Part shown: positions 3,709 through 11,299 of the stretch, one piece after another
How positions within the stretch are numbered: the stretch's first letter is position 1
How the letters are laid out: each line of letters begins with the position of its first letter
IMG/VR virus record: IMGVR_UViG_3300032224_001324
Coordinates: 1-24,370 of that record
DNA from: a virus
Strand: one strand, 5' to 3'
DNA length: 24,370 nucleotides
Translations under genes and position numbers: made by a program
Notes under the pieces: generated by a model
The model's database searches: none
What the model saw: the letters and a program-made list of their open reading frames with translations, nothing else
Told to the model about the DNA's origin: nothing

Positions 3709-5334
3709 ATGGGTTACTACAGAACGTACTATCTAACATCAGGTACATCATTCACTGTTCCTAATACATGGAATAATAGCGCTAACTTTGTAGTTTGCTA
3801 CGGTGGTGGTGGTGGCGGTGGTGCCGGCAGTAGTACAGGTGCCACTTATACTGGTGGCGGTGGTGGCGGTGGTGCTGCTTCAAAAACTACAAACATAACT
3901 CTTACACCGGGCAGTAGTATCCCTTATTTTGTTGGCGCCGGCGGTGGTCCTAATTCAGGTGGCGGTGATACATCTTTTAATAGTGGTCAAGTATATGCAA
4001 AGGGTGGTACTGCTGGTGGTAGTAGTGGCACAGCCGGTGTAGGTGGTTCAGGCGCTAGCGGTACAGGCGCTTCTCGCTACTATGGCGGTAATGGTGGTAC
4101 AGGTGGTAATGGCGTAGGTGGTGGTGGCGGTGGTGGTGCTGCCGGTGATGGCGGTGACGGTCAAGCCGGTTATACCTATAGTGGCTCTTCTGGTGGTCCA
4201 GGTGGTCAAGGCTATGGTGGTTCTGCTGGTGGTTCTGCTGGTACTGGCAATGCTGGTAATGGTGGTAATGGTAGCTATGCTGGCGGTGGCGGTGGCGGAT
4301 CAGGTGCTTATTATTCCGATAAAGCAGGCTCGGCACAATATAACGGCGGTAACGGCGGTTATTATGGTGGCGGTGGTGGCGGTGGATACTATGGCGGCTA
4401 TGGCATACAAGGTATCATTGTTGTTGGATATTATTGGGATAATATAATTCCATCAACAGGTCAGGTCACAGCACAAAATTGGAATCTAGCATTAGACTTA
4501 CCACCAACAAGTTCATTTAATATTGCTGGTACACCTGCCCGTAATCTTGCCGGCATTCTTTCTGGAGCTATTAGTTATCAAGATGGCCGCGGTAAGGGTG
4601 TGTTTGCACTTGATAGAACAATAACTGCAGATACACCAAATTATAATCTTTACAATGATCTTCTTTATAATGCAGCTTGGGATGGTTCAACAAAAGTAAA
4701 CGTAACAATTACTATCAATAGTGGAATTTATGTTTACTCAACAAGCACCGGAACACCAGCAATGGTTATCTCTGGTATGCCTGCCGGCTCTGTTGTCAAC
4801 ATCATAAATAATGGATATATTATTGGTGCTGGCGGCTACGGCGGTAAAGGTGAAGGTGGTAGTGGTTATAATAGAAGCTCAGCTGATACCGGTTATGCTG
4901 GTGGCGGGGGTGGAACCGCTCTTCAATTAGGTAGTACTGTAAATATTACAAACAATGGCGGTATTTGGGGCGGCGGTGGTGGTGGCGATGGTGGCCGTGG
5001 CGGTAACACCGGCGGCAAATCACGCGGTCCTACTGCTGGTGGCGGTGGTGGCGGTGGTGCTGGTTATAATGCAGGTGCTGGCGGTCCTGGTGGTACCAAT
5101 GGTGAGGGAGCTAATGGTAGCGCTGGAGCAAATGGTGGTAGAACAACAGGTGGTGCTGGAGGTGCTGGTAGAGCTTCTCCAGGTGGTAATGGTGGTGATG
5201 TAGGTAATGCAGGCGGACCTGGTGATTACGGTAGTGGTATAGTTTATGGTGTTGGTGCTGCAGGTTATTATATTATTGGCGGTGGGTATGCCACTTGGAT
5301 AACAACAGGCGATCGCCGCGGACAAGCAGGATAA
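3709..5334 (+). CDS. large two-domain glycine-rich adhesin-like protein
   Basis: A 541-residue protein starting two bases after the S74 fibre stop. After LTSGTSFTVP (9-18), which matches the lead-in of the first fibre gene, residues 32-235 form a Gly-rich domain with many GGGGGGG runs spaced by Ser, Ala, Tyr and Asn. A non-Gly-rich linker (about 240-370) carries fibre-like beta segments. A second Gly-rich domain begins near 373, with the sequences NITNNGGIWGGGGGG and GGTALQLGS. The second domain resembles the C-terminal glycine-rich receptor-recognising regions of T4-group gp38 and of some lambda-type side-tail proteins. It could be the terminal adhesin on the S74 fibre, as gene 38 follows gene 37 in T4. 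That pairing is inferred from position. Reverse-strand frames here look open only because GGN codons read as His/Pro/Thr-type codons. Confidence 0.75.
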   Translation: MGYYRTYYLTSGTSFTVPNTWNNSANFVVCYGGGGGGGAGSSTGATYTGGGGGGGAASKTTNITLTPGSSIPYFVGAGGGPNSGGGDTSFNSGQVYAKGGTAGGSSGTAGVGGSGASGTGASRYYGGNGGTGGNGVGGGGGGGAAGDGGDGQAGYTYSGSSGGPGGQGYGGSAGGSAGTGNAGNGGNGSYAGGGGGGSGAYYSDKAGSAQYNGGNGGYYGGGGGGGYYGGYGIQGIIVVGYYWDNIIPSTGQVTAQNWNLALDLPPTSSFNIAGTPARNLAGILSGAISYQDGRGKGVFALDRTITADTPNYNLYNDLLYNAAWDGSTKVNVTITINSGIYVYSTSTGTPAMVISGMPAGSVVNIINNGYIIGAGGYGGKGEGGSGYNRSSADTGYAGGGGGTALQLGSTVNITNNGGIWGGGGGGDGGRGGNTGGKSRGPTAGGGGGGGAGYNAGAGGPGGTNGEGANGSAGANGGRTTGGAGGAGRASPGGNGGDVGNAGGPGDYGSGIVYGVGAAGYYIIGGGYATWITTGDRRGQAG

Positions 5335-5345
5335 GGAAAGTTTAA

Positions 5346-5672
5346 ATGGCTAATAATATTACTATAAATGTCAAAAGCTATAATCAAAACACTATGTCTT
5401 TGATTGTTAGCTTTTCTGATGGAACTCATACAACAACAGATGTTCATGTTCAACCATATGTCTATGGTGCTGATAATACTGAAGACATGCTTAAGATGCT
5501 AGCAATTACTGGAAGTAATATGTTATTGACTGAAGTTAAAAGACGTAATTTTGCTGCCAACTTTGCTGCCCATGCTGAAATAAGAAGTGTTGTAAACACA
5601 TCTGTAACATTTTCAAGAGATGAAATTCTTGATATGTCTATTACTAATAATGGTCTTGAGGTTCAGATATGA
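5346..5672 (+). CDS. hypothetical protein of the fibre locus
   Basis: A 108-residue protein I do not recognise. It starts after an AAGGA site (about 5333-5337). Residues 1-35 look like beta strands (NITINVKSYN, SLIVSFSDGT), followed by a helical middle (EDMLKMLAITGSNMLLTEVKRRNF) rich in Ala/Asn and a polar C-terminus. No signal peptide, membrane segment or catalytic motif is seen. Its stop overlaps the next start as ATGA, so it is the first gene of the coupled chain running to 8724. It could be a small virion or fibre-accessory protein. It carries no sign of the enzymes downstream. Confidence 0.7.
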   Translation: MANNITINVKSYNQNTMSLIVSFSDGTHTTTDVHVQPYVYGADNTEDMLKMLAITGSNMLLTEVKRRNFAANFAAHAEIRSVVNTSVTFSRDEILDMSITNNGLEVQI

Positions 5673-6178
5673 AACATATTGAAGCTCCATTTATCTGTAA
5701 GGGGTTTGTCATTTGTGTTGGGCATTTAAGTGCTAACGACATATATGATTTTACAACTAAAGAAACAACAACAGATGGTGTTTTTAGTCAACTAGGTTAT
5801 TGCTTAGATGGTGGAGCTGTATTGAACGACAAGAATGGTCGTAAGGTAATGGATCTTGTTGCCGGTCAACTTTATGACTTTAAAGATCTTTATGGTAAAG
5901 AATATACAATGAATACCGGTACCCGTGGTGGTACTTGGTTTTGTATTAACCCAACACCTGCAACAAAAAGATACAAGTATGACTTAATTAGAGAAAGTCA
6001 AACTAAGTCAATTGCCGGTAAAGATTTTGAGCAAACAGTAATATGTGTTTATGGATCTATTACAGTAAATGGAAAAGATTTGATTGGTAAGCAATATGCT
6101 CGTATTCTTAATAACAAAACAGCTGTTGTTACTACACAACCAAATTCATTAGCATTGTATTTCTATGAGGACAAATAA
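5669..6178 (+). CDS. hypothetical protein, possibly duplicated cupin-like barrel
   Basis: A 169-residue protein with start and stop overlapping its neighbours (ATGA at 5669, TAATG at 6178). Two halves each look like short beta strands with glycine turns. In the first, residues 35-95 contain LDGGAVLNDKNGRKVMDL and a Gly/Thr turn. In the second, residues 120-169 contain VICVYGSITVNGKDL, then QYARI and a closing ALYFYED strand. The second half has the rhythm of a cupin barrel (strand, G-S-I-T-V-N-G, strand, late aromatic strand), but I see no complete His/Glu metal-binding set. The fold is a weak inference and no function is assigned. Position suggests a fibre-locus accessory protein co-translated with the small VKNIIVVD protein. 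Confidence 0.7.
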   Translation: MKHIEAPFICKGFVICVGHLSANDIYDFTTKETTTDGVFSQLGYCLDGGAVLNDKNGRKVMDLVAGQLYDFKDLYGKEYTMNTGTRGGTWFCINPTPATKRYKYDLIRESQTKSIAGKDFEQTVICVYGSITVNGKDLIGKQYARILNNKTAVVTTQPNSLALYFYEDK

Positions 6179-6447: not shown

Positions 6448-7494
6448 ATGTTACTTGGTGAAATGTATTATTATGATAATGATAACAAGATTTATCCATT
6501 AAAGAATGAAGCTCTTAAAACTAAAAAAGATTTAAAGTTTTATTTCCATGATGATTTCTTTATCAAACAGCAATGGAAAGTAGAGCCAACAGAGTCTCTC
6601 AATGAGCTCTATAAACAGCGTGCCCAACAAATACGTGACAAATACGAATACGTAGTTCTTTGTTACTCTGGTGGTGCCGATTCAACTCAAATATTAGAAT
6701 CGTTTTATTACAATAATATCCATATTGATGAAATATTGGTTGTCGGCGCTCTTTCACAAGATAGTGAAAAAAGCGTTGATGAAAACCACAACGGTGACCT
6801 GTATCACAATGTGTTTCCAACACTCAATCAGTTTAAGTTGCCAAACACTAAAATAACTTTAATTGATTATACCAAGTATTTTAATGATCCAAACTTCTTC
6901 ACTTTAATTAAACAATATGGTCCTGAGTACCACAATTACATTGGCACATACTCAAGTGTACACAATCTATTTTGGTATGACTTACCTTTATTTTTTAGAT
7001 CAGATAAGCAAATAGCATTTATATTTGGTGCTGAAAAACCCAAAGTAATTTATCATAAAGACACTGGTAAGTTTTGTGCTACATTTATGGACTCATCTTT
7101 AACAGATTATGGTTTTAGATATAACTACGGTAGCGGTAAGAGAGTTAACTTCTATACAGATCCTGATGCTATTAAGTTAATGATTAAACAACACCATGCA
7201 GTTAAGAATTTTCTTTTAGAAAATGTTATTGGTAAAGATCCAATGATATATGATCGGTTTCAAGTAGATTATTTTAGTAATGTTAGACCTATAATCTATA
7301 ACTTAAAAAATCCACTGGCTTTTGAATCTATAAAATCCAAGACAACCGTTTTAAGTGCTAGAGACAAGTTTATGCTAATAAACAAGAATTCAGAGATATA
7401 TAATATATTCAGACAATCGTTAGTAAACCTTAGTAAAGATCGTAACATTAATCAACGTTATTCAATTCCATCAAGAGAGTATCCATTAAACTAA
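6448..7494 (+). CDS. PP-loop ATPase-like protein (first of three)
   Basis: A 348-residue protein with a P-loop-like pyrophosphatase motif YSGGADST at 73-80, preceded by the hydrophobic strand YVVLC. This is the SGGxDS loop of the N-type ATP pyrophosphatase (adenine nucleotide alpha hydrolase) fold, as in asparagine synthetase, QueC and tRNA thiolases. These enzymes adenylate a carboxylate, carbonyl or base before attack by an amine or sulfur nucleophile. About 70 residues precede the motif. There is no glutaminase Cys at position 2 and no CxxC zinc pair, so it is neither a full asparagine synthetase nor a typical QueC. Residues 77-105 align with the protein at 7927 (D-S...F..NNI.I..I.V). The ATG follows GAGGATTAATTA. 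The stop overlaps the hydroxylase start (TAATG), so the two are co-translated. The substrate is unknown. Confidence 0.78.
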   Translation: MLLGEMYYYDNDNKIYPLKNEALKTKKDLKFYFHDDFFIKQQWKVEPTESLNELYKQRAQQIRDKYEYVVLCYSGGADSTQILESFYYNNIHIDEILVVGALSQDSEKSVDENHNGDLYHNVFPTLNQFKLPNTKITLIDYTKYFNDPNFFTLIKQYGPEYHNYIGTYSSVHNLFWYDLPLFFRSDKQIAFIFGAEKPKVIYHKDTGKFCATFMDSSLTDYGFRYNYGSGKRVNFYTDPDAIKLMIKQHHAVKNFLLENVIGKDPMIYDRFQVDYFSNVRPIIYNLKNPLAFESIKSKTTVLSARDKFMLINKNSEIYNIFRQSLVNLSKDRNINQRYSIPSREYPLN

Positions 7495-7949
7495 TGTACT
7501 ACATTTACTGCTTCATTGGTTGGACTTTTTGTATTTACTGGTGTCATAGAGTGGCTCACCAAATACCCGCACTGCAATACTTTCATAAAGACCACCACAA
7601 ACAAATAGCTGATGATACTTATCAGGGATTGAATTGGAAGAATCTTTTTTTATTTTTTGATACTTGGAAAAGCACTATTGATCAATGGTTAACAGAAGTC
7701 ATACCCACCATTATTCTTAGTTACTTTGTTGGTTGGTGGTTATTTGGATTATATTATGTGTGGGCTGCTTTCATACAAGAAGCAATAGAGCACAACCCAA
7801 AGTTCAATCTGTATCCATTTATAACTAGTGGTAAATGGCATCTTGTTCATCACAGTCATAATGATAAAAACTTTGGTGTGTTTTTTCCTATATGGGATAT
7901 TATATTTGGATCTTGGAAAGCTATAGATGACAAAGAACGATTGGTTTAA
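7494..7949 (+). CDS. fatty acid hydroxylase-family membrane di-iron protein
   Basis: A 151-residue integral-membrane oxygenase candidate. The histidine clusters of the fatty acid hydroxylase / sterol desaturase family are all present: HRVAH (18-22), HKDHH (31-35), a lone His at 100 (EAIEH) and HLVHHSH (116-122). They are followed by the family signature NFGVFFPIWDIIFGSW (126-141). These His residues bind two irons that activate O2 for C-H hydroxylation or desaturation of lipids, sterols or carotenoids. Hydrophobic segments lie at 1-17 and about 68-95. Known members are usually over 200 residues, so this is a compact form, but no catalytic cluster is missing. It overlaps its neighbours at both ends (TAATG at 7494 and 23 bases at 7927), placing it firmly between two PP-loop genes. 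The family assignment is strong. The substrate is not inferable. Confidence 0.85.
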   Translation: MYYIYCFIGWTFCIYWCHRVAHQIPALQYFHKDHHKQIADDTYQGLNWKNLFLFFDTWKSTIDQWLTEVIPTIILSYFVGWWLFGLYYVWAAFIQEAIEHNPKFNLYPFITSGKWHLVHHSHNDKNFGVFFPIWDIIFGSWKAIDDKERLV

Positions 7950-8724
7950 ACACAATCTAGCTAATAGATTAACTGACCCAAGTTGCAATCTTAAAATAAC
8001 AATCAATCCAGGTCAATATACCAAGATGTCATTTGATGAAGCTTGTGACTATACGGCTAAGCAGATATACAAAGATCTTGGGCCTAGTCTTTATCTTGCG
8101 TTAAGTGGTGGTTATGATTCTGAGTTTGTTTTGAGAGTGTTTCAACGAAATAATATTCCAATTATTCCAATTGTTGTAATGACTGGCGGTAACCAAAAGG
8201 AAGCAGAATATGCTTTTAAAGCTTGTCCAGATCCTGCATTAATTGGTATAAATGAACAAATAGTTTTAAAGACATATTATACAGAAATATATCAAAAGTT
8301 AAACAGCTATGGTATTCACTCGGTACCAGCTTTATTGTGTGGTCAATATGCACAGGAACGTGGTGGTAATCTTGTTGTAGGTGAACATATCATTGATGGC
8401 ACAACGTTTCGTGTTAATGACTGGGATTTTTACAACGATGTATTATTAACCAATAAGACTGCTGAGTTCTTTATCTATACACCGGAAGTTGTTTATGCAA
8501 TGACCTATGAGATGACGGAAGATAGTGAACAACAATGGAAAGATAAGCTCTATAAATTGAAATCTAGACCAATTCATAGTTATCAATATACAAAAGCATT
8601 TGATACAGTATTAAAAGACATTAATTCAAAAAGACAATGCCATCCAAACCCTAGTCATTTATTTGGTAATAAAAATCAAATGTTAGACCAAATGTCAGTA
8701 TTTGATTTACCCTGTAATGAGTAA
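7927..8724 (+). CDS. PP-loop ATPase-like protein (second of three)
   Basis: A 265-residue protein with LYLALSGGYDSEF at 55-67, the SGGxDS pyrophosphatase loop after a hydrophobic strand, and TGGNQKEAEYA at 86-96 where the fold's second nucleotide-contact region usually lies. The loop and following helix/strand resemble the 6448 protein (LSGG.DS....L..F..NNI.I..I.V), suggesting duplication, but the C-terminal halves differ. Neither a glutaminase domain nor a zinc-cysteine cluster is present. The start at 7927 overlaps the hydroxylase gene by 23 bases and has only a weak GGAAAG upstream. Met34 is an alternative start that keeps the motif. The 3' end overlaps the convergent QueC-like gene by 49 bases. 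The proximity and overlaps suggest it acts with the hydroxylase. The reaction is unknown. Confidence 0.75.
   Translation: MTKNDWFKHNLANRLTDPSCNLKITINPGQYTKMSFDEACDYTAKQIYKDLGPSLYLALSGGYDSEFVLRVFQRNNIPIIPIVVMTGGNQKEAEYAFKACPDPALIGINEQIVLKTYYTEIYQKLNSYGIHSVPALLCGQYAQERGGNLVVGEHIIDGTTFRVNDWDFYNDVLLTNKTAEFFIYTPEVVYAMTYEMTEDSEQQWKDKLYKLKSRPIHSYQYTKAFDTVLKDINSKRQCHPNPSHLFGNKNQMLDQMSVFDLPCNE
8676..8724. other. 49-base convergent gene overlap
   Basis: The plus-strand PP-loop gene ends at 8724 and the minus-strand QueC-like gene ends at 8676, so their last 16 codons are complementary. Both reading frames run cleanly to their stops (TAA and TGA). No hairpin with a T-run is visible between them, so read-through would give antisense RNA to each gene. 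Confidence 0.75.
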
Positions 8725-9539
8725 TGCTGATTAGAATTTACATAATCAATTACCATTTGCTTTGTACGCAAGTCATTAATAATCTTGCCTCTTCTCATTT
8801 CAATAGGTAACCAATATCTTATTGGTGCAGATATGCCAGTATTGCCACCATACTCTAATGACTTTAATCTTCTCCAAGCATTAACATGTTCAGCAGTATA
8901 ACCGTTTAATCTCATGTCTTGAACTTTTTGATCCCACAAACACTTATAGCATCTACCACAAGGTTCATTCCATTGACCATTATTAGTAGAATTTGGGCTG
9001 TGGCAAGAAAGTGTTAATTCAAGAATGTTTTGTGGAAGATATTCAAATACATGCCATCTTGAAAAGTTTTCATAGTACTCATCTGTTACCAAAGGATTCC
9101 ACAACTCACCTCTTGTACAGAGCTCTGCAAACAACCTTTCAGCAGCAAATTGTGAGGGTGTTCCTTTTACAGAAGAATTCTTATATACAGATTGATCTTG
9201 TTGTTCCCAGGTACGACCTGTTGCTATTCTATCATAGACACCTGCATTAATATCAGCAGCTACACTATTAATGAAATATGTGTAGTAATGATCTGTTTCG
9301 GGTGTAATACTTTGATCAGTAACTGTTTTTCTAATGACTTCAAAATCTCTAATTTTTTTCAATTCTTGAATTAATCTTGGTATTCTAAGACTGCTTTGTG
9401 GTGTGTGACTAATACTATTCTGTGCTCCAGGTGCTTTATCAAGAACCACGGCTGTAACCTGATCGGTTGTATCAGTCAGTAATTTATACAGAATAAAAGT
9501 TGAATCTGCACCACCAGACCACATTAATAGTGTTTTCAT
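8676..9539 (-). CDS. QueC-like PP-loop protein with four-cysteine zinc site
   Basis: A 287-residue protein on the minus strand. The N-terminal MKTLLMWSGGADST (loop at 8-14) is the ATP pyrophosphatase motif right at the start, as in QueC. Cys179, Cys194, Cys197 and Cys200 (CGRCYKC at 194-200) match the C-xn-C-x2-C-x2-C zinc site of 7-cyano-7-deazaguanine synthases, although the first spacing is 14 residues, longer than in bacterial QueC. QueC makes preQ0 from 7-carboxy-7-deazaguanine, ATP and ammonia. Some phages use this chemistry to modify DNA or tRNA. The protein is longer than usual QueC (about 230 residues), and no FolE, QueD or QueE is in the window, so a different substrate is possible. 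AGGAG at 9550-9546 precedes the ATG, and a late-type element lies at 9559-9566. Confidence 0.75.
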   Translation of the reverse strand: MKTLLMWSGGADSTFILYKLLTDTTDQVTAVVLDKAPGAQNSISHTPQSSLRIPRLIQELKKIRDFEVIRKTVTDQSITPETDHYYTYFINSVAADINAGVYDRIATGRTWEQQDQSVYKNSSVKGTPSQFAAERLFAELCTRGELWNPLVTDEYYENFSRWHVFEYLPQNILELTLSCHSPNSTNNGQWNEPCGRCYKCLWDQKVQDMRLNGYTAEHVNAWRRLKSLEYGGNTGISAPIRYWLPIEMRRGKIINDLRTKQMVIDYVNSNQHYSLQGKSNTDIWSNI

Positions 9540-9558: not shown

Positions 9559-9566
9559 TATTTATT
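9559..9566 (-). promoter_or_regulatory. putative late promoter element for the QueC-like gene
   Basis: The plus strand reads TATTTATT, so the minus strand is AATAAATA, a NATAAATA variant. It overlaps the stop codon of the TctC-like gene (9562-9564) and lies 19 bases before the ATG ending at 9539. The leader would be very short but would still contain the AGGAG site. It is weak on sequence alone and is supported by position. Confidence 0.4.
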
Positions 9567-10506
9567 TGACTTTATCCAGTAAGTCTTTAGGAGTATTAGC
9601 TAATCTTTGCACAATATCGGTAACTTCTTGCCAACTTACTGGGTTTACCTCAATACTGGCTTTATTTGCTTCCTCAATATATTCCGGATCATTAGCAGCA
9701 AGTAGGAACCCTCTTCTTAAAATCTTTAGTTGTTTTTCTGATGTTTCAGGTGGAGCAATATATGGCCGCATTGTAGTATATTGCATTTCAAATAATTCAA
9801 GAAGTTGTTGATCTTTTTGATCAATAAGTTCAGCCAAAGTAGGTACGTCAGGAATTAGATGATATCTATTTTTACCGTTTGCAAACTGAAACATGATATT
9901 GATACCACTGTCTGGCTTAAGCCATTCTGGTTTAAATTGTCTGACACCATTATATGTGTTGAGATATGCTTCAACTTCTTTCTTTTCAAAAGCAAATCTT
10001 ACTTCATTAGCTGTATTATATCCATTTACTAGCTTAAAGTTTAATTTTGTTGCTAGTTGAATAAACTTTACAGGATCACCAATAACATTGTTTTGTGTAC
10101 CAACAATTAGTGGATTACTACATGGATTGCAATTTATTAGAAAGATATTGGCATTTTGACGACCGTCTGCCGTTGACCCAAGCCAGTTAAACTTCTCAGG
10201 CTTATACTCAATGCTTGGCCCACCAATGATACCAATAATAGGAATATTCTTTTGAGTAACAGCAATTGTAAAGCCATCTTTGGGTGCTATTGAATACATG
10301 TAGTTAGCAACAACCACACCGCCAGCACCAGGCATGATTTTATAAGTTATGGACGTAATATTTGGGGTGTGGTTTTGCAAGTATTTTGAGAATATTCTTG
10401 CATTTAATGCATGGGCATCATATGCGGCAGACATAACAATAGTCAGAACTTCTGCTTTTACGGGGGTAATAAATAACAATAATGCTGCCAAAATAGCTTT
10501 AAACAT
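9562..10506 (-). CDS. TctC/Bug-family periplasmic solute-binding protein
   Basis: A 314-residue protein with a clear signal peptide (MFKAILAALLLFITPVKA, predicted cut after Ala18). Family hallmarks of tripartite tricarboxylate transporter receptors follow: MPGAGGVVVANYMY (58-71), APKDGFTIAV (74-83), YKPEKFNWLGS (101-111) and PDVPTLAEL (219-227). Such proteins bind carboxylates or related small molecules in the periplasm and hand them to TctAB membrane partners, neither of which is in this window. I chose the ATG at 10506 because GGAG lies seven bases upstream and the signal peptide then starts the protein. The longer frame from 10635 would run into gene 13. A perfect TATAAATA on this strand lies 35 bases upstream. 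The family is usual in proteobacterial chromosomes and odd in a phage late region. The ligand is unknown, and the CxxC at 126-129 is unusual. Confidence 0.87.
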   Translation of the reverse strand: MFKAILAALLLFITPVKAEVLTIVMSAAYDAHALNARIFSKYLQNHTPNITSITYKIMPGAGGVVVANYMYSIAPKDGFTIAVTQKNIPIIGIIGGPSIEYKPEKFNWLGSTADGRQNANIFLINCNPCSNPLIVGTQNNVIGDPVKFIQLATKLNFKLVNGYNTANEVRFAFEKKEVEAYLNTYNGVRQFKPEWLKPDSGINIMFQFANGKNRYHLIPDVPTLAELIDQKDQQLLELFEMQYTTMRPYIAPPETSEKQLKILRRGFLLAANDPEYIEEANKASIEVNPVSWQEVTDIVQRLANTPKDLLDKVK

Positions 10507-10522
10507 AACAACTCCATAGATT

Positions 10523-10540: not shown

Positions 10541-10548
10541 TATTTATA
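10541..10548 (-). promoter_or_regulatory. T4-type late promoter element for the TctC-like gene
   Basis: The plus strand reads TATTTATA, the exact reverse complement of TATAAATA. It directs transcription leftward, 35 bases before the TctC-like start at 10506, with GGAG in the leader. It lies inside the leader of gene 13 on the other strand and touches that gene's Shine-Dalgarno. Confidence 0.65.
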
Positions 10549-10558
10549 AGGGATAACC

Positions 10559-11299
10559 ATGGCCGTTCCAGCTTCCAGACAAGACTTTACAGAATATTGC
10601 CTTCGTAAATTGGGTAAGCCAGTTATTGAAATCAATGTGGATGATGACCAAGTTCAGGACCGTATTGATGAAGCATTTCTTTATTACACCGACTATCACT
10701 TTGATGGTACCGAGAAAACCTATTACAAGTATCAAGTAACGGATACCGATATTACCAACAAGTACATTACGATGCCAGAGAACATCATCGGCGTCGTTAA
10801 TCTGTTTCCAATTGGTCAGTCTCTCAACACCAATAACTTGTTCAACATTCGCTATCAGATTGCATTGAACGACTTGTATACTCTTACATCGGTCTCGATG
10901 GTTCCATATTACATGGCTCTATCGCACGTTCAGTTCCTTGAACAGTTCTTAGTTGGTCAGCAGCCACTACGCTACAATCGTCACATTAACAAGCTCTACA
11001 TTGACATGGACTGGACACTCGTTGTCTCCGGTGACTACATCATTGTCGAGGCTTACTCAGTAATTAATCCAGACACATATACAAAGACTTGGGGTGATCG
11101 CTGGCTCGCTCGCTACGCGACTGCGTTGATTAAGCAGCAGTGGGGAACTAACCTTAAGAAGTACCAAGGAATGCAATTGCCAGGTGGCTTAACTTTTAAT
11201 GGTCAGCAGATCTATGATGAAGCTACTCAAGAGAGAGAAGAGCTTGAACATGAAATGATTACCAGCTACTCACTCCCAGTTACAGATATGATTGGCTAA
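10559..11299 (+). CDS. 13: head completion / neck protein gp13-like
   Basis: A 246-residue protein matching the T4 gp13 neck family: an N-terminal helical segment (CLRKLGKPVIEINVDDDQVQ within 15-35), a YYTDYHFDG block, and a C-terminal part with WGDRWLARYATALIKQQWG and LPGG. gp13 and gp14 form the neck between portal and tail and allow tail docking after DNA packaging. T4 gp13 is about 309 residues, so this is a shorter version of the kind usual in aquatic T4-like phages. It is the first gene of the conserved block and its stop overlaps the gene 14 start (TAATG). It uses more C-ended and CGT-type codons than gene 14. Identification rests on both sequence and the unbroken 13-14-15-16-17 order. 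Confidence 0.85.
   Translation: MAVPASRQDFTEYCLRKLGKPVIEINVDDDQVQDRIDEAFLYYTDYHFDGTEKTYYKYQVTDTDITNKYITMPENIIGVVNLFPIGQSLNTNNLFNIRYQIALNDLYTLTSVSMVPYYMALSHVQFLEQFLVGQQPLRYNRHINKLYIDMDWTLVVSGDYIIVEAYSVINPDTYTKTWGDRWLARYATALIKQQWGTNLKKYQGMQLPGGLTFNGQQIYDEATQEREELEHEMITSYSLPVTDMIG

Follow-up and report, generated by a model that had tools for sequence, protein, structure and literature searches.

The question raised by this locus is what a secreted solute-binding protein (SBP) of the bacterial TctC/Bug type does in the structural region of a T4-like phage. The window, the whole stretch of 24,370 nucleotides analysed here (IMG/VR record IMGVR_UViG_3300032224_001324), is a fragment of a T4-like phage: gp13, gp14, terminase and sheath have matches among the PHROG families, and the closest relatives of the terminase come from Sinorhizobium phages N3/M12 (55%), followed by cyanophages (48%). 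The gene at 9562–10506 (minus strand) is an intact open reading frame that starts with ATG, is preceded by a GGAG Shine-Dalgarno sequence (10512–10515, minus strand) and encodes a predicted TctC/Bug-type secreted protein of 314 amino acids (P0001, a member of the viral clade A described below). It lies antisense to, and head-to-head with, the divergent neck gene gp13 (T4-like head–tail adaptor; 10559–11299, plus strand; PHROG 211, E 7.9e-43), which anchors the site; the placement of an antisense gene in the structural region by the sequence-only reading is thereby borne out. An artefact of a chimeric contig is ruled out, as the gp13 junction recurs in many separate contigs.

The N-terminus of P0001 consists of MFKAILAALLLFITPVKA, a signal peptide that matches the n/h/c pattern and ends before EV, the start of the following residues EVLTIV. 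By a home-made rule for signal-peptide scanning, an export signal is found in 62 of the 67 viral SBP-type proteins, compared with 43 of the 632 other ORFs in the neighbourhood, and P0001 would be exported via the host Sec pathway. Judged from these features, this is a real gene of a bacterial virus for a secreted protein, with small-molecule binding as its predicted activity.

Over its whole length, P0001 is a divergent TctC/Bug homologue according to sequence and profile comparisons. In tblastn searches it gives full-length matches to proteobacterial TctC (30% identity, E 1e-27, 92% coverage), consistent with the earlier description of a secreted TctC/Bug homologue, and its bacterial relatives are found in alpha- and betaproteobacteria rich in orphan Bugs. 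A profile bridged by bacterial members finds BugE, TphC, BugD, Bug27 and Polaromonas TctC in the PDB (E 1e-8 to 1e-4), and this profile match is the basis for the predicted two-domain type II SBP fold. The viral-only profile (A2) reaches no Bug protein in the PDB, indicating that the P0001 branch is far-diverged and that fold membership depends on the bacterial bridge. Against Pfam TctC (PF03401), P0001 scores 25.6 bits (E 1.1e-5), narrowly below the curated cut-off of 27 bits, and PF03401 matches 24 of 41 aligned relatives at E 0.01. The lack of TctA/TctB partners seen in the sequence-only reading extends to the relatives, with TctA in 0 of 44 and TctB in 0 of 16 related records; a complete TTT transporter (TctA and TctB with TctC) is not found in these phages.

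In known TTT SBPs, a [PFxAGGxxD] loop coordinates the proximal carboxylate of the ligand (PMC8556258). When the pockets are compared by sequence alignment, the P0001 loop at this site is SAAYDAHALNAR, which departs from the canonical loop, and the core viral loop is mostly PSxDDSYxINAR or similar, with one residue fewer than the canonical one; the deeper relatives L134 and L143 retain GG. Asp30 replaces a bacterial Gly in 27 of the 30 core clade-A members but not in ten deeper members, Gly being present at this position in 54 of 70 bacterial sequences. As P0001 falls short of both the Pfam cut-off and the canonical loop, it is not filed as a canonical TctC. The earlier statement that family hallmarks are present thus holds for the overall homology and for the residues kept in clade A (P59-G60-A61, P75-x-D77-G78, G162-Y163 and A251-P252-P253), but not for the loop, which is absent in the core clade, or for the Pfam score.

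Clade A has in addition invariant residues of its own, which bacterial sequences lack: D114-G115-R116 (40/40, 38/40 and 40/40, respectively), in which G115 is an insertion, and E240 (40/40). R170, G187 and G209-N210, the last also an insertion, are further invariant or near-invariant residues of this kind. The dN/dS ratios of close pairs are 0.05–0.14, and clade A is under strong purifying selection. The sequence-only reading had proposed that degraded pocket residues in related phages would speak against a function; at the sequence level, purifying selection and clade-specific invariant residues are found instead. These two features suggest that clade A rebuilt its pocket, or the rim of it, and has since conserved the new form, i.e., that the protein has been remodelled rather than decayed. 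Because the loop is changed (Gly to Asp, one residue fewer), the ligand or partner may differ from that of known Bug proteins.

Relatives of P0001 are widespread in uncultured viral contigs. Scanning IMG/VR with alignments, we found first 14 and then 43 loci with relatives of 27–49% identity, which a viral scan with a single-protein query did not detect, whereas no bacterial match in 84,980 species genomes exceeds about 32% identity. In a maximum-likelihood tree, 40 viral sequences form one group apart from the bacterial ones (SH-aLRT 94), and one long-branched viral sequence (L142) is placed among bacteria. The viral branch is separate from the bacterial proteins sampled, and the phylogeny that had been suggested for finding the donor lineage names no donor. 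Among INPHARED isolate phages, P0001, a second viral Bug-type protein (SBP2), a deep viral homologue and a typical bacterial TctC all gave no match, and neither the SBP family nor its coupled enzymes occur in any sequenced isolate phage of the searched collection.

Many related records contain two or three Bug-type genes, PF03401 matching in 34 of 44 records and repeatedly in several. SBP2 (Pfam TctC, 47.6 bits) forms its own viral group of 23, with dN/dS ratios of 0.03–0.13 in close pairs. A PP-loop (SGGxDS) gene stands directly before SBP2 in 18 cases with a spacing of −53 to +12 nt, and examples of such translational coupling are seen in L012 (915–1844, plus strand), L104, L105, L108, L114, L115 and L124. 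In some phages, the SBP2/PP-loop pair occurs twice. A third, small Bug-type group comprises three viral sequences (L092:5303–6277, minus strand; L097:6121–7101, plus strand; L111:13254–14237, plus strand), each beside a QueC-like gene in phages that also carry clade A. At 22 loci, a 2OG-Fe(II) oxygenase gene lies downstream of an SBP gene in the same direction, with a 4–8-nt overlap or a 1-nt gap in all 22. Gene spacing thus indicates translational coupling of the SBP genes, with 2OG-Fe(II) oxygenase genes at 22 loci and with PP-loop ATPase genes in 18 cases.

In the window, a QueC-like PP-loop ATPase gene (8676–9539, minus strand; PHROG 1550, E 8.5e-11), whose product has an SGGADS loop and CGRCYKC zinc-type cysteines, follows the P0001 gene in the same direction, 22 nt past the SBP stop, and a QueC-like gene adjoins an SBP gene in 12 of 42 related loci. 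Farther along, at 6448–8724, is an operon-like run of three plus-strand genes, and this trio is conserved in many relatives: PP1 (6448–7494; SGGADS), of the same family as the m89 proteins paired with SBP2; a fatty acid hydroxylase-type membrane enzyme (7494–7949; PF04116, E 7.5e-18) with 58–69% identical relatives in the same island; and PP2 (7927–8724), whose SGGYDS motif is conserved in relatives. PP1 and PP2 have no Pfam match. The label 'PP-loop' for proteins of the A5 profile is provisional, being based on the SGGxDS motif and weak homology, and this profile gives no match in the PDB at E 1. PADLOC and NCBIfam returned nothing useful, and no defence family matched the proteins examined beyond a trivial QatC motif hit. 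In T4-like phages, the island extends from tail-fibre/Gp38-like adhesin genes to the neck gene; in most T4-like members with a neck region, gp13 has the clade-A gene beside it in antisense orientation, and in the rest this gene is found elsewhere in the island, at a distance of a few genes. The window encodes a glycine-rich Gp38-like tail adhesin at 3709–5334 (Pfam GP38, E 2.3e-9). Between the tail-fibre region and the island, the window (5669–6178) and L012 (6738–7262) encode 51% identical, weakly cupin/pirin-like proteins.

The association with these enzymes extends beyond single loci. PP1/m89 proteins occur in 23 of 44 SBP-positive records versus 0 of 49 SBP-negative T4-like records (Fisher p 5e-10; p 3e-6 among records >40 kb), although these values overstate independence because the records share ancestry, and the co-occurrence is in part common descent. 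A better argument for a functional link is that the QueC-like/SBP pair recurs in phages of another layout, near tail-fibre genes (L131, L132, L134 and L143). In L139 and L140, which represent another phage type, a QueC-like gene immediately precedes the SBP gene, and the region has a single-strand DNA-binding protein rather than structural genes. Around the bacterial relatives (84 loci), PP-loop genes are rare nearby, with a single ORF found, and TctA is nearby in 15; a PP-loop family search of bacterial genomes, run with no positive control, gave no match. Overall, the P0001 relatives are a conserved viral family that moves with the same few enzymes in more than 40 uncultured phage sequences. 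P0001 is thus no isolated capture of a host gene, as it belongs to a viral family whose site is conserved and which is frequently accompanied by another Bug-type gene and by coupled enzymes.

As for the timing of expression, an exact T4-type late promoter motif (TATAAATA; 10541–10548, minus strand) lies 42 nt upstream of the P0001 ATG, in agreement with the late promoter assigned in the sequence-only reading. The window contains five exact copies of the motif versus 2.3 expected, and this count taken alone is weak evidence, as it is equalled in 7% of shuffles; four of the five (31, 14917, 23245 and 10541) are just upstream of a late gene on the correct strand. The motif also occurs at −44 to −47 before the same SBP gene in five related loci. 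These five are all close relatives and the exact motif is absent in most other relatives, so that late expression is likely for the window phage in particular. Scans for sigma-70 promoters and terminators gave chance-level results only.

The SBP family and its linked enzymes suggest that a specific nutrient is either taken up or trapped by these phages in the late phase of infection. In known bacteria, orphan Bug proteins that share a few TctAB permeases are the rule, and Bugs often outnumber TctAB (PMC5812351), which suggests that a phage need supply the binding subunit only. Clade-A proteins would be phage-adapted orphan SBPs that are made late, exported via Sec and closed in the periplasm on a small, probably carboxylate-bearing ligand, which might be passed on to a host permease, either TctAB-type or of another kind that depends on type-II SBPs. 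Once imported, the compound would be used by the 2OG-Fe(II) oxygenases and PP-loop ATPases made alongside the SBP, and not for host growth in general. PP-loop ATPases perform adenylating, carboxylate-amidating chemistry in known relatives. We tentatively favour this reading, in which clade A supplies a capture subunit, expressed late, that works through a host permease to provide for the linked phage enzymes, at a confidence a little under even; two or three divergent SBPs per phage exceed a single uptake need and, like the altered carboxylate loop, argue against it. In a bolder form, which is possible with a rather low probability, the locus would be a self-contained island of T4-like phages in which duplicated virus-specific SBPs, coupled to PP-loop and 2OG enzymes, import an environmental carboxylate via a host permease for conversion in the cytoplasm into a phage-specific product, e.g., a modified fibre, lipid or small molecule.

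The multiplicity of divergent SBPs would be accommodated if the protein were a periplasmic trap or exclusion factor, sequestering a ligand or jamming a host permease or receptor so as to prevent superinfection, weaken a host defence or signal, or adjust lysis, with no transport involved. The absence of TctA from these phages and the late promoter motif at the P0001 gene are consistent with such a role, and the remodelled loop together with E240 and D114-G115-R116 could make an interaction surface. The coupled genes, however, encode metabolic-type enzymes rather than lysis or immunity functions, and defence families are represented by nothing beyond the QatC motif hit, making this role unlikely. 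Alternatively, the island might be a module that alters host lipids/LPS or phage tail fibres, in which the SBP would be a periplasmic precursor carrier or a periplasmic or virion accessory. Its position speaks for this: in T4-like phages it is flanked by tail-fibre/Gp38-like adhesin genes on one side and the neck gene on the other, and in phages of another type it adjoins tail-fibre genes. A fatty acid hydroxylase and 2OG oxygenases would suit such a module, but no glycosyl- or acyl-transferase is present among the island proteins tested and adjacency to fibre genes may mark a merely tolerant insertion site, leaving this explanation distinctly improbable. Finally, a passenger TctC gene from a Bug-rich proteobacterium, retained by drift or as a generic uptake booster, would fit the bacterial relatives in alpha- and betaproteobacteria with many orphan Bugs, but is largely refuted and very improbable given the viral-only branch of 40 sequences with at most about 32% identity to bacteria, the strong purifying selection, the fixed synteny and the coupled gene pairs.

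Neither the fold family nor the concept of an SBP encoded by a phage is new. The viral protein resembles orphan Bug/TctC proteins (BugD, BugE, Bug27, AdpC and TphC) in secretion, size (about 300 amino acids), full-length homology and the absence of TctA/TctB nearby (PMC5812351, PMC8556258). Unlike them, it is phage-borne, has a late promoter motif, insertions at G115 and G209-N210 and coupled PP-loop/2OG enzymes, and has lost the canonical loop in the core clade. Cyanophage PstS is likewise a periplasmic SBP carried by T4-like phages with no membrane transporter parts; it is, however, an ABC-type SBP for phosphate controlled by the host Pho system, whereas the present protein is TTT-type and is accompanied by a late promoter motif and an island of enzymes. 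SUP05 viral contigs include a single tctA domain hit, and a 2OG oxygenase is listed there too (PMC4164917); this is also a TTT-related gene on a viral contig, but the genes described here are of TctC type only and form a conserved family. The QueC-like neighbour (8676–9539) shares an SGGxDS loop and a CxxC-type zinc motif with QueC/QatC, but is far below the curated cut-offs, and no QueD/QueE or QatA/B/D partners are seen. In the open-access literature, we found no phage TctC beyond a tctA domain hit, and no virus-specific Bug branch with duplicates, fixed synteny and coupled PP-loop/2OG enzymes.

Phage binding proteins are usually taken for single borrowed host genes; here, a virus-specific Bug branch occupies a fixed site and, often together with a second Bug-type gene and coupled to two enzyme classes, recurs across phages from many metagenomes. 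This raises a testable question, namely, which small molecule is needed late in infection, and what product the enzymes make from it.
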